DNA of 64,000 nucleotides from Periplaneta americana. Its lineage: Eukaryota; Arthropoda; Insecta; Blattodea; Blattidae. Where the stretch lies: the NCBI RefSeq assembly GCF_040183065.1, contig NC_091119.1, positions 192,393,543-192,457,542 on the forward strand, given 5' to 3'. The position numbers and the translations under genes were made by a program. The notes under the pieces are model-generated. The model worked only from the letters and a program-made list of their open reading frames with translations. It searched no databases and was not told where the DNA came from. This document shows positions 1,730 through 64,000 of the stretch, piece by piece. Numbering within the stretch: position 1 is the first letter of the stretch; every line of letters begins with the position of its first letter.

Positions 1730-36455
<34,726 letters not shown>

Positions 36456-48614: not shown

Positions 48615-48619
48615 CCAAT
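48615..48619 (+). promoter_or_regulatory. Upstream CCAAT box
   Basis: GGCCAATAG, 53 bp upstream of a second CCAAT box in the jun promoter. Candidate NF-Y/CTF site. Confidence 0.4.
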
Positions 48620-48667: not shown

Positions 48668-48672
48668 CCAAT
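48668..48672 (+). promoter_or_regulatory. CCAAT box, jun promoter
   Basis: AGCCAATAG at -91 relative to the proposed start at 48759. It begins exactly 20 bp before the CRE/TRE-like site, as I recall for the human JUN promoter. Confidence 0.6.
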
Positions 48673-48687
48673 AGAGTCGCGGCTGGG

Positions 48688-48695
48688 TGACGTGA
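48688..48695 (+). promoter_or_regulatory. CRE/TRE-like site, jun promoter
   Basis: TGACGTGA at -71, one base off the CRE TGACGTCA. It corresponds in position and spacing to the human jun1 TRE (TGACATCA, recalled). A Jun/ATF2 heterodimer site is the expected function. Confidence 0.65.
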
Positions 48696-48699
48696 TGCG

Positions 48700-48709
48700 A
48701 TAAAAATAA
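48700..48709 (+). promoter_or_regulatory. MEF2-like site, jun promoter
   Basis: ATAAAAATAA matches YTAWWWWTAR at 9 of 10 positions. It begins 12 bp after the start of the CRE/TRE-like site, the same offset as the recalled human MEF2 site. Confidence 0.55.
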
Positions 48710-48715
48710 CTTGTG

Positions 48716-48722
48716 TGAGTCA
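48716..48722 (+). promoter_or_regulatory. Consensus AP-1 site, jun promoter
   Basis: TGAGTCA, a perfect TRE, 12 bp upstream of the TATA box. It suggests Jun autoregulation. Confidence 0.65.
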
Positions 48723-48727
48723 CAGAA

Positions 48728-48733
48728 TATAAG
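48728..48733 (+). promoter_or_regulatory. TATA box of jun
   Basis: TATAAG, 31 bp upstream of the A in TTCAC (48756-48760), which fits an arthropod TCA-type initiator. Start of transcription proposed at 48759. Confidence 0.6.
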
Positions 48734-48758
48734 CAGTACGGTTGGATGTAGTTGATTC

Positions 48759-48952
48759 ACAAAGCGTTTAGTTGAGCAGGGGAGCAGACGTGTGCGGTTC
48801 GTAACAGAGACTTGGTCGCCACGGCGCCTGTACGTATTGATCGCCGAAGTGAGTCATTCTTGTTGTGGTTGAACACGCGGTGACGCTAGCGTTGTTGTCA
48901 TTTGCAGTAGTGGAGGCTTCATATAAAGTGTGAGGAGGAGGACGCTCGCTTG
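48759..48952 (+). other. jun 5' UTR (proposed)
   Basis: About 194 nt, CpG-rich, with no ATG before 48953. A second perfect AP-1 site TGAGTCA lies at 48850-48856. A second TATA-like TATAAAG at 48922-48928 could drive a shorter transcript starting near the 48953 ATG. A gtgagt/ttgcag pair would give only a ~55-nt intron and is unlikely. Confidence 0.5.
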
Positions 48953-49831
48953 ATGGTTCGCAACTGTTCCAATCCCAAGATGGAGACTACGTTCTACGAG
49001 GACCAGTCTTTCCAACATAGGTTAAACGGAGATGTGAACCAATTGAAACGAAGTATGACTTTGGATCTGAACGCGTCTCGGGGTCCGGCGAAGAGGCCGA
49101 AATTCAACCCTGCCGTTACAGCAGCTCCTGTACTGTCATCCCCGGATCTGAATATGCTGAAGCTGGGCTCTCCCGAACTGGAGAAACTCATCATCGCGCA
49201 GCAGAATGGTCTGGTGACGACGACTCCAACTCCGACGACGCAGATACTGTTTCCGAGGACTGTGACAGAGGAGCAGGAGATGTATGCGCGAGGGTTCGTG
49301 GATGCCTTGAACGAGCTACACACGAGCGATTCGAGTCAGATGAGCTCGGGGGGAGGTTTGCAGCCCGTGGACGTCCCCGTCACCAGCAGCGGCACCGGCG
49401 TCGGAGTCACGTACACGACGCTGGAACCTCACGGCCAGGTCGTGATCAGCCAGGCGAATTCGTTTTCGCCAATCTCTTCTGCCGGGTACAACATCCTGTC
49501 TCCGGATTCTGCAATAATAGTGAAGGACGAACCTCAGACTGTTCCGAGTCTGGGATCAACACCGCCACTGTCACCAATAAACATGGAGTGCCAAGAGAAG
49601 ATCAAGCTGGAGAGGAAGAGGCAAAGGAACAGGATAGCTGCTTCGAAGTGCAGGAGGCGTAAGTTAGAACGCATTTCAAGGCTCGAGGACAAAGTTAAAC
49701 TTCTTAAAGGTGAGAACACCGAACTTGGTAGTGTTGTGCATAAGCTCAAAGAACAAGTGTGTCAGCTGAAAGAGCAAGTGATGGACCATGTGCATAGTGG
49801 GTGTCAAATTATGGTGGCCTCCCACTTCTGA
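48953..49831 (+). CDS. Jra: Jun/Jra, bZIP AP-1 transcription factor (intronless)
   Basis: 292 residues in one exon. Residues 10-15 METTFY, SMTLDLN (34-40), and [19 protein letters not shown] (62-80) match the start, delta region and JNK target region of vertebrate c-Jun. Ser63-Pro, Ser73-Pro, Thr91-Pro and Thr93-Pro fall at the same numbers as in human [11 protein letters not shown] and TPPLSPI (203-209) match the regulatory cluster before the basic region. Basic region 221-240 is [20 protein letters not shown]. Zipper leucines lie at 244, 251, 258, 265 and 272. The protein binds AP-1/CRE sites in the nucleus as homo- or heterodimers, under JNK control. The first ATG in the transcript is 48953; ATG 48980 (METTFY) has a better context and may also start. 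GC-rich compared with surroundings. Confidence 0.97.
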
Positions 49832-59440: not shown

Positions 59441-62400
59441 AAGTCTCGGTATTTTTTTCTCGAAAATCAGCTTGTGTTCGGGATTCTCATCTTGATGCTA
59501 TCGTGTCCGAAGTAAATGAAGGGGGAATACAAGAGCGCATTCCGTTCCTCTGTATGACCATTATTTCCGGGGATTAGAGACTGAAATATTTTACGTAGGC
59601 AAAAAAAAAAAAATAAAACAAAAAAAAAAAATAAGTCTACAAAAAAGTGCAACGAATTTACTCGATTTTATTGGTGTTTATTAGTAAACATGCGGGGATG
59701 CTACAGTGAAAAGTGCGGGTCTCTGAGCCCCTTCGTACCCCTTGTGTAGAGAAAATTCTCTTTTGGAAGGTCAAAATGCCCATTTTTTTAAAATATGCCG
59801 GCCTCTACCGACCATGTTCCTGGGGACAGAGAGTTGTCCTTTACGCTACAGATAGAGGTCGAGAAGCTCTATTCGCCGCACTTATCAGTTTTGTTCTCGC
59901 TACACGTACGGCGGAGTTATGGCGGCGAGAATGTTGGCGGAATAGAGGTAATTGGTAATTTTTTTCTCGAAAATCACCTTGTCTGTCGGGGTTCCCATTT
60001 TAATGATATATTGTCCCTTCCTTTTCCTAGTGAAGAGAAAATTCTGTTTTGGAAGGTCAAAATCACCATTTTTTTTAAATTTTGCCGATCTCTCCCGTCC
60101 AAACGAACGGGGATAGAGAGTTGTCCTTTATCCTAAAGATAGAGTTCGTCGAGCTGTATGCAACGCATTCACGGCTTTGTTGTCACTACACGTACTGCGG
60201 AGTTATGGCGGCCAGAATGTTGGCGGAATAGTTCTCGAAAATCAGAAATTGTTCGCGATTGCCATTTTGATGCTATCGTGTAAGAAATAAGTCAAGGGGG
60301 AATACAGGGCCGCATCCCGTTCCTCGGTATGGCCATTATTTCCGGAATTACAGACTCAAATATTTTGGGTACCCAAAATTTGGGGCTAGAAAAAAGGGCG
60401 ACGGATTTGCCGGATTTTAGCGGTGATTACTACTGAAGATGCTGGGATGCTACAGTTAAAAGGGCAGGCCTCTGAGACGCTTCGTTCTCCGTGTGTATAA
60501 TAAATTCTGTTTTGGAAGGTCAAAATGACCATTTTTTTTAATTTTGCCGGCCTCTCCCTTCCAAACGAACGGGGATAGAGAGTTGTCCTTTATACTAAAG
60601 ATAGAGTTCGTCGAGCTGTATGCAACGCATTCACAGCTTTGTTGTCACTACACGTACTGCGGAGTTATGGCGGCTAGAATGGTGGCGGAATAGTGCGTAG
60701 AATAGTTTACCTTCCCCTTTTTCCTCGAAATTCAGAAAGTGTTCGCGATTGCCATTTTGATGCTATCGTGTAAGAAGTAAGTCAAGGGGGAATACAGGGC
60801 CGCATCCCGTTCCTCGGTATGGCCGTTATTTCCGGAATTACAGACTCAAATATTTTAGGTACCCAAAAATTGGGGATAGAAACAAGTGCGACGGATTTGC
60901 CGGATATTTGCGGTGATTACTACTAAAGATGCTGGCATGCTACAGCTAAAAGGGCAGGGCTCTTAGTCGCATCGTTTTCCGTTGTTGAATAAATTCTGTA
61001 TTGGAAGGTCAAAATGACCATTTTTTTTAATTTTGCCGGCCTCTCCCTTCGAAACGAACGGGGATAGAGAGTTGTCATTTATACTCAAGATAGAGTACGA
61101 CGAGCTGTATTCAACGCACTCATCGGCTTTGTTGTCCTAAACGTACTGCGGAGTTATGGCGGCTAGAATACCGGCGGAAAATCAGAAATGACCATTTTTT
61201 GAAATTTTGCCGGCCTCTCCCTCCCAAACGAACGGGGATAGAGAGTTGTCATTTATACTCAAGATAGAGATCGACGAGCTGTATTCAACGCACTCATCGG
61301 CTTTGTTGTCACTAAACGTACTGCGGAGTTATGGCGGCTAGAATGGCGGCGGAAATCGAAAATTAGAAATTGTTCGCGATTGCCATTTTGATGCTATCGT
61401 GTAAGAAGTAAGTCAAGGGGGAATACAGGGCCGCATCCCGTTCCTCGGTATGGCCTTTATTTCCGGAATTACAGACTCAAATATTTTAGGTACCCAAAAA
61501 TTGGGGCTAGAAAAAAGTGCGACGGATTTTCCGGATATTTGCGGTGATTACTACTAGAGATGCTGGGATGCTACAGTTAAAAGGGCAGGCCTCTGAGTCG
61601 CTTCGGTCTCCGTGTGTAGAAAAAAATTCTGTTTTGGAAGGTCAAAATGACCATTTTTTTAAATTTTGCCGGCCTCTCCCTTACAAACGAACGGGGATAG
61701 AGAGTTGTCATTTCTACTCAAGATAGAGTTCTACGAGCTGTATTCAACGCACTCATCGGCTTTGTTGTCACTAAAAGTACTGCGGAGTTATGGCGGCTAG
61801 AATGGCGGCCCTTTTTTTCTCGAAAAACAGAAAGTGTTCGCGATTGCCATTTTGATGCTGTCGTGTAAGAAGTAAGTCAAGGGGGAATACAGGGCCGCAT
61901 CCCGTTCCTCGGTATGGCCGTTATTTCCGCAATTACAGACTCAAATATTTTAGGTACCCAAAAATTGGGGCTAGAAAAAAGTGCGACGGATTTTCCGGAT
62001 ATTTGCGGTGATTACTACTAGAGATGCTGGGATGCTACAGTTAAAAGGGCAGGCCTCTGAGTCGCTTCGTTCTCCGTGTGTAGAAAAAATTCTGTTTTGG
62101 AAGGTCAAAATGACCATTTTTTGAAATTTTGCCGGCCTCTCCCTTCCAAACGTACGGGGATAGAGAGTTGTCATTTATACGCAAGATAGAGTTCGACGAG
62201 CTGTATTCAACGCACTCATCGGCTTTGTTGTCACTAAACGTACTGCGGAGTTATGGCGGCTAGAATGGCGGCGGAACAGTAGTTGCCCTTTTTTTCTCGA
62301 AAATCAGAAAGTGTTCGCGATTGCCATTTTGATGCTGTCGTGTAAGAAGTAAGTCAAGGGGGAATACAGGGCCGCATCCCGTTCCTCGCTATGGCCTTTA

Positions 62401-64000
62401 TTTCCGGAATTACAGACTCAAATATTTTAGGTACCCAAAAATTGGGGCTAAAAAAAGTGCGACGGATTTTCCGGATATTTGCGGTGATTACTACTAGAGA
62501 TGCTGGGATGCTACAGTTAAAAGGGCAGGCCTCTGAGTCGCTTCGTTCTCCGTGTGTAGAAAAAAATTCTGTTTTGGAAGGTCAAAAGGACCATTTTTTT
62601 TTAATTTGCCGGCCTCTCCCTTCCAAACGAACGGGGATAGAGAGTTGTCATTTATACTCAATGTAGAGTTCGACGAGCTGTATTCAACGCACTCATCGGC
62701 TTTGTTATCACTAAACGTACTGCGGAGATATGGCGGCTAGAATGGCGGCGGAACAGTGCCCTTTTATTCTCGAAAATCAGAAAGTGTTCGCGATTGCCAT
62801 TTTGATGCTGTCGTGTAAGAAGTAAGTCAAGGGGGAATACAGGGCCGCATCCCGTTCCTGGGTATGGCCGTTATTTCCGGAATTACAGACTCAAATATTT
62901 TAGGTACCCAAAAATTGGGGCTAGAAAAAAGTGCGACGGATTTTCCGGATATTTGCGGTGATTACTACTAGCGGTGCTGGGATGCTACAGTTAAAAGGGC
63001 AGGCCTCTGAGTCGCGTCGTTCTCCGTGTGTAGAAAAAAATTCTGTTTTGGAAGGTCAAAATGACCATTTTTTGAAATTTTGCCGGCCTCTCCCTTACAA
63101 ACGAACGGGGATAGAGAGTTGTCATTTATACTCAAGATAGAGTTCGACGAGCTGTATTCAACGCACTCATCGGCTTTGTTGTCACTAAATGTACTGCGGA
63201 GTTATGGCGGCTAGAATGGCGGCGGAACAGTGGGTTTACTTTGCCCTTTTTTTCTCGAAAATCAGAAAGTGTTGGCGATTGCCATTTTGATGCTGTCGTG
63301 TAAGAAGTAAGTCAAGGGGGAATACAGGGCCGCATCCCGTTCCTGGGTATTGCCGTTATTTCCGGAATTACAGACTCAAATATTTTAGGTACAGTGCCCT
63401 TTTTTTCTCGAAAATCAGAAAATGTTCCCGATTGCCATTTTGATGCTGTCGTGCAAGAAGTAAGTCAAGGGGGAATATAGGGCCGCATCCCGTTCCTGGG
63501 TATGGCCGTTATTTTCGGAATTACAGACTAAAATATTTTAGGTACCCAAAAATTGGGGCTAGAAAAAAGTGCGACGGATTTTCCGGATATTTGCCGTGAT
63601 TACTACTAGAGATGCTGGGATTCTACAGTTAAAAGGGCAGGCCTCTGAGTCGCTTCGTTCTCCGTGTGTAGAAAAAAATTCTGTTTTCGAAGGTCAAAAT
63701 GACCATTTTTTGAAATTTTGCCGGCCTCTCCCTTCCAAACGAACGGGGATAGAGAGTTGTCATTTACACTCAAGATAGAGTTCGACGAGCTGTATTCAAC
63801 GCACTCATCGGCTTTGTTGTCACTAAATGTACTGCGGAGTTATGGCGGCTAGAATGGCGGCGGAACAGTGGGTTTACTTTGCCCTTTTTTTCTCGAAAAT
63901 CAGAAAGTGTTGGCGATTGCCATTTTGATGCTGTCGTGTAAGAAGTAAGTCAAGGGGGAATACAGGGCCGCATCCCGTTCCTGGGTATTGCCGTTATTTC
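59441..64000 (+). repeat. Satellite array, monomer about 470 bp, continues past the window
   Basis: Twelve units, dated by the shared TCTCGAAAAT start: near 59461, 59968, 60236, 60726, 61175, 61357, 61821, 62298, 62771, 63256, 63409 and 63894. Full units are about 449-507 bp; those at 59968, 61175 and 63256 are internally deleted (268, 182 and 153 bp). Conserved blocks include GATTGCCATTTTGATGCT, AAGTCAAGGGGGAATACAGG, ACTACTAGAGATGCTGGGAT and TATGGCGGCTAGAATGGCGG. The leftmost units are the most diverged and later ones are nearly uniform, as expected at a satellite edge. Confidence 0.93.

Follow-up and report, generated by a model that had tools for sequence, protein, structure and literature searches.

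It was found that a CCAAT box, an ATF/CRE-like site and a MEF2-like site lie directly 5′ of the jun coding sequence of the cockroach Periplaneta americana, in the order and apparently with the 20-bp and 12-bp steps of the vertebrate JUN promoter. The spacings of the three motifs are not plausibly random. I give about an even chance to the reading that this order and spacing descend from a bilaterian ancestor, the letters between and around the motifs having drifted. A second copy of the layout, at a place on contig C7 of the same genome, bears directly on this reading.

The jun gene and its promoter elements

The window, that is, the whole 64,000-nucleotide stretch that was analysed, comes from contig C3 at 192.4 Mb and carries the jun coding sequence as a single open frame of 283 aa (48980..49831, + strand). 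A Pfam profile search identified the product as Jun (Jun, PF03957, E 5.3e-34; bZIP_1, E 2.7e-18), and in the stretch compared its bZIP shares 69-72% of residues with human Jun and JunD. In a profile search of the 3.23-Gb genome, the gene tops at least 8 bZIP_1 matches, among which no second jun gene is evident. The first-pass annotation had claimed that the motifs front jun, and indeed a real Jun ORF lies about 0.3 kb downstream of them. The motif positions were also confirmed by reading the sequence directly: CCAAT starts at 48668, TGACGTGA at 48688 and ATAAAAATAA at 48700, giving the offsets of 20 and 12 bp. The three motifs lie between 312 and 271 bp before the start codon at 48980 (METTFYED), the CCAAT box being the element at 312 bp. 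An in-frame ATG at 48953 would prepend nine residues (MVRNCSNPK) to METTFYED. The elements, with positions relative to a presumed start at 48759, are as follows.

48615..48619, + strand: second CCAAT, upstream, at -144
48668..48672, + strand: CCAAT box (NF-Y type), at -91
48688..48695, + strand: ATF/CRE-like TGACGTGA, at -71; one mismatch to TGACGTCA; counterpart of the human jun1 TRE TGACATCA
48700..48709, + strand: MEF2-like ATAAAAATAA, at -59; one mismatch to YTAWWWWTAR, as the site begins with A where the consensus has C or T
48716..48722, + strand: perfect AP-1 TRE, TGAGTCA, at -43; absent from the earlier list of elements
48728..48733, + strand: TATA-like TATAAG, at -31
48756..48761, + strand: initiator-like TTCACA, with A(+1) at 48759; the arthropod Inr TCAKTY is not matched
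48786..48791, + strand: DPE match AGACGT (RGWYVT), exactly at +28
48850..48856, + strand: another perfect TRE, TGAGTCA, within the presumed 5′ UTR
48922..48927, + strand: second TATA-like element, TATAAA, which could serve another start near the ATGs

The region is best explained as the proximal promoter of insect jun. The two perfect TREs flank the presumed start, an arrangement that would suit autoregulation by Jun. The start at 48759, proposed in the first-pass annotation, fits in part: TATAAG at -31, CA at +1 and the DPE at +28 agree with it, but TCAKTY does not occur there and other starts are possible. TCAKTY has 4 matches in a 581-bp stretch, including 48854 and 48898, and the DPE scan, which used the looser RGWYNT, gave 5 occurrences in 581 bp. 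Since two of the TCAKTY matches and the second TATA at 48922 lie further downstream, the true start may differ from 48759. If it is 48759, the 5′ leader would be short, the ATG at 48980 following after 221 bp.

Likeness to and difference from vertebrate JUN

I take the human JUN elements to lie at -91 (CCAAT), -71 (jun1 TRE) and -59 (MEF2/RSRF). The 20-bp step from CCAAT to the jun1 TRE is presumably correct; the presumed human sequence and the presumed footprint positions agree on it. Rozek and Pfeifer 1993 is said to be the source of the 20-bp step and of the -91/-71/-59 numbering, and Shin et al. 1999 is reportedly, by its title, a study of MEF2 and the c-jun promoter.

The 12-bp step can be read from print. 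A ChIP primer for the JUN TSS, gggtgacatcatgggctatt, contains TGACATCA, 4 letters and then CTATT; the passage giving it states no species, and of the MEF2 site the primer covers the first 5 letters (PMC5706420). MEF2 probes reading GGGCTATTTTTAGGG agree with this primer in the passages that describe them (PMC6470251, PMC4339472), one of which cites Shin et al. 1999. The MEF2 and AP-1/ATF sites of the vertebrate c-jun promoter are described as functional in passages of two further papers (PMC2628930, PMC3256215). In searches of the open-licence PMC literature, the 12-bp step alone was found; neither the CCAAT part of the vertebrate JUN promoter nor a description of an insect jun promoter layout turned up. 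Of the claim that the spacings are the same as in human, the 12-bp step is supported by a published primer for vertebrate JUN, and the 20-bp step agrees with the human value that I take to be right.

The insect promoter resembles human and rodent JUN in the order of the motifs, in both spacings (the 20-bp one presumably), in the CCAAT-to-start distance of 91 if +1 is 48759, and in its place before jun. It differs in the letters of the motifs, human JUN having TGACATCA where the insect has TGACGTGA, and CTATTTTTAG where the insect has ATAAAAATAA; neither the exact jun1 TRE nor the exact human MEF2 site is present at insect jun. A TATA element, a DPE and, at -43, a perfect TRE further set the insect promoter apart from human JUN. 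The distal human slots, which I take to be jun2 TRE at -190, NF-Jun at -140 and Sp1 at -115, have no counterpart at these positions of insect jun; 3 of the 6 human elements considered are matched.

The identity of letters was assessed over the same region. From -91 to -50, 24 of 42 letters agree with the presumed human sequence (mean 10.5, sd 2.75), a score equalled at four positions between 62.0 and 63.6 kb of the window, in or adjoining a tandem-repeat array. The published 20-letter JUN-TSS primer agrees at 14 of 20 letters, a score that 4 further places in the window share. Past the MEF2 site, the identity to the presumed human sequence is 18/63, near chance, as it also is in the spacers between the motifs, and the alignment gives 42/105 overall. 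Alignment at the level of letters was rejected as proof of conservation, and it detects no conservation of letters at the jun promoter, the 24/42 having four ties in the window. Since the letter identity is not unique and the distal slots are empty, the resemblance is one of layout. It had been suggested that a whole core promoter is conserved between insects and vertebrates; this is partly supported, by the spacings and by the core-promoter elements that fit a start at 48759, but exceeds the evidence in view of the downstream letters, the missing distal elements and the differing CRE and MEF2 letters. The tandem-repeat array itself runs from 61012 to 63545 with units of 153-477 bp, and the scores of 22-24/42 to the presumed human promoter in and around it are probably due to chance.

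Spacing, chance and a second layout on C7

The layout was scored against a fixed consensus, CCAAT-N15-TGACRTCA-N4-YTAWWWWTAR, which has 23 specified letters and was taken from presumed vertebrate motif definitions, untuned to the site. The jun promoter has 2 mismatches in 23, and the next best place on either strand of the 64-kb window has 5. Simulated order-2 Markov sequence, 4 Mb for each of two models, contained no position with 2 mismatches or fewer, and 0 and 1 positions, respectively, with 3 or fewer. When the real elements of the upstream 1 kb were placed on a spacing grid, 3 of 5475 pairs were as good as the observed pair, which is itself included in the count. Circular shifts, again counting the observed pair, gave 84 of 1,000,000 spacing pairs in 1 kb, 6 of 250,000 in 500 bp and 6 of 90,000 in 300 bp. 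A looser pattern, tuned after the site had been seen, had one window match at 3 mismatches or fewer, against 0.09 expected. These models of spacing and chance are uniform, whereas CCAAT and CRE have preferred positions in promoters; owing to this non-uniform placement, the fair odds are estimated, not computed, to be nearer 1 in a few thousand.

The genome was searched for the 35-place pattern CCAAT-N15-TGACRTSA-N5-TA, with CCAAT and TGACRTSA required exactly. There are 17 such places, three of which are near-identical neighbours on C2, against 19 for the reversed-pattern control. Against the full consensus, the promoter-like place at C7:107364263-107364297 (minus strand, L013) has no mismatch, the jun promoter 2 and the other 15 places 3 to 7. 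The C7 place reads CCAAT, 15 letters, TGACATCA, 4 letters, CTATTTTTAG, which are the motif letters that I take to be human, and it is identical at 31 of 42 letters overall to the presumed human JUN sequence. At this place, TATATAAG starts 46 bp from CCAAT, the implied start would be nearer CCAAT than in jun, and GTAAGT, a possible splice donor noted by eye, is 200 bp away from CCAAT. In G+C, the jun and C7 places rank above the rest of the 17 (0.48 and 0.51; next 0.41). A TATA element 46-60 bp from CCAAT is present at both and at one other of the 17 (L018, 56 bp). A palindromic ATTACGTAAT is found upstream of the C7 place.

Partial layouts are not in excess over reversed controls anywhere in this comparison: besides the 17 places versus 19, there are 103 CRE-12-MEF2 places versus 117, and among the 100 of the 103 that were listed, many belong to one repeat. 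The strict full pattern has a single match in a 257-Gb prokaryote collection, in a record titled as a bacterial MAG. Scaled from this collection, about 0.01 perfect C7-type places are expected by chance in this genome; multiplying the 103 CRE-12-MEF2 places by 4^-5 for CCAAT gives about 0.1.

What does the C7 place front? No bZIP_1 match lies near it, and none of the 8 matches listed for the genome is on C7, which lends no support to a jun paralogue. NR4A is likewise not supported: of the 36 zf-C4 matches, the nearest one on C7 is more than 12 Mb off. In the 120 kb downstream, tblastn queries with five DNA-binding domains had no hit at E <0.1 (best 0.18), and inspection by eye of the listed open frames (minimum length 55 or 65 aa) revealed no recognisable exon of a DNA-binding-domain gene. 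Searching the literature for the letters of this place yielded no relevant title. Since the same layout occurs here with the presumed human motif letters, a shared layout alone is no proof of descent, and since jun is not nearby, the layout can come about, or be favoured by selection, at other places too. The C7 place points to an NF-Y/ATF-Jun/MEF2 module whose spacing is constrained, and makes the case for conservation at jun only less convincing.

Possible common descent and its rivals

Could the resemblance be a coincidence, in which an ordinary CCAAT, CRE, A/T-rich stretch and TATA happened to fall at the human spacings and were noticed post hoc? The non-unique letter identity in the window is in keeping with this, the compared elements were hand-picked (3 of 6 matching), and the preferred positions of CCAAT and CRE make the true odds better than the uniform model gives. 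Moreover, a phage-like contig equals the score with 2 mismatches to the fixed consensus, being the one match that the tuned pattern has among 2.9 million viral contigs; it has a terminase-like frame, and its layout match was taken as chance. A score of 2 does arise by chance somewhere in very large collections, and what counts is its location in a jun promoter; no animal jun loci were found in the viral and prokaryote collections. With 84 of 1,000,000 and 3 of 5475 spacings as good, and no equal place in the window, coincidence is improbable. That vertebrate JUN promoter DNA entered the assembly by contamination or misassembly can practically be dismissed: the resemblance itself is all that speaks for it, whereas the site lies at 192.4 Mb of C3, immediately ahead of a jun ORF with 69-72% identity to human Jun and JunD in the part of the bZIP compared, and the flanking letters are unlike the presumed human letters.

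Because of the C7 copy, convergence on a constrained spacing has to be taken seriously as a rival. NF-Y, ATF/Jun and MEF2 may cooperate best when they are about two helical turns and one turn apart, and human JUN, insect jun and C7 would then be three independent cases. The perfect layout of C7, which has the presumed human letters and stands ahead of a TATA and a GTAAGT, agrees with this, as do the lack of a bZIP_1 or zf-C4 match near it, its low chance expectation by either estimate, and the fit of 20 and 12 bp to helical phasing. On the other hand, a module of a common inducible type would be expected at more promoters, and no genome-wide excess of partial layouts was seen; with as many as 0.1 such places expected, the C7 place on its own could still be chance. 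I regard convergence as possible, while leaning away from it. The layout evidence comes from one insect species, which cannot tell an inherited layout from one that arose twice.

In the reading of common descent, order and spacing would have been retained because spacing matters. NF-Y would bind CCAAT, a Jun/ATF2-type bZIP dimer would bind TGACGTGA two helical turns downstream, and MEF2 would occupy the A/T site one turn beyond. The three would most likely form one stereospecifically spaced complex just upstream of the TATA/Inr/DPE core, and MAP-kinase signals (JNK on Jun/ATF2; p38/ERK5 on MEF2), together with Jun itself, would turn on jun. A broader version, in which the base-pair spacing of the JUN NF-Y/ATF-Jun/MEF2 sites is bilaterian-old, held by helical phase and also taken up by, or common to, at least one further promoter (C7) as a portable ancient module, is a tentative one, and I consider it rather doubtful.

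Very few stretches of regulatory DNA are known that are recognisably common to insects and vertebrates. If the layout and not the letters lasts, alignment-based screens may have missed ancient promoters. The persistence of a layout could then be tested directly on JUN, one of the most thoroughly studied inducible genes, and the perfect second layout on C7 provides an internal comparison of descent with spacing-driven convergence. In the X2/Y box of MHC class II genes, a CRE-like site and a CCAAT lie about two turns apart in a spacing-sensitive manner; the genes and partners differ from those of insect jun, and there is no MEF2. Arthropod immediate-early promoters can be very conserved, as egr-B is: its core promoter (CCAAT, two CREs, SRE, Inr, DPE) is described as similar in most hemimetabolous insects examined, Tribolium and Daphnia (PMC6140108). 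The likeness to jun lies in an immediate-early gene with CCAAT and CRE near an Inr/DPE core, conserved as far as Daphnia; in contrast, it is a different gene, its core names SRE and not MEF2, and the section on it makes no comparison with a vertebrate layout (PMC6140108). According to the same section, the DNA-binding domain of ATF2 is conserved between mouse and the termite Zootermopsis and changed in Drosophila, Apis and Tribolium (PMC6140108), which predicts where the jun layout should be lost. The Bicores, enhancers of Id and Znf503, are reported as common to deuterostomes and protostomes and as not detected in insects (PMC3410860). They resemble the jun promoter as a claim of regulatory DNA common across Bilateria, while they are enhancers with conserved sequence and synteny (PMC3410860) and insect jun has a promoter layout without significant letter conservation.

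Elsewhere in the window, tRNA matches form two divergent pairs, at 2414-2889 and 35704-36170, whose starts are 404 and 395 bp apart; they look like a duplicated unit.
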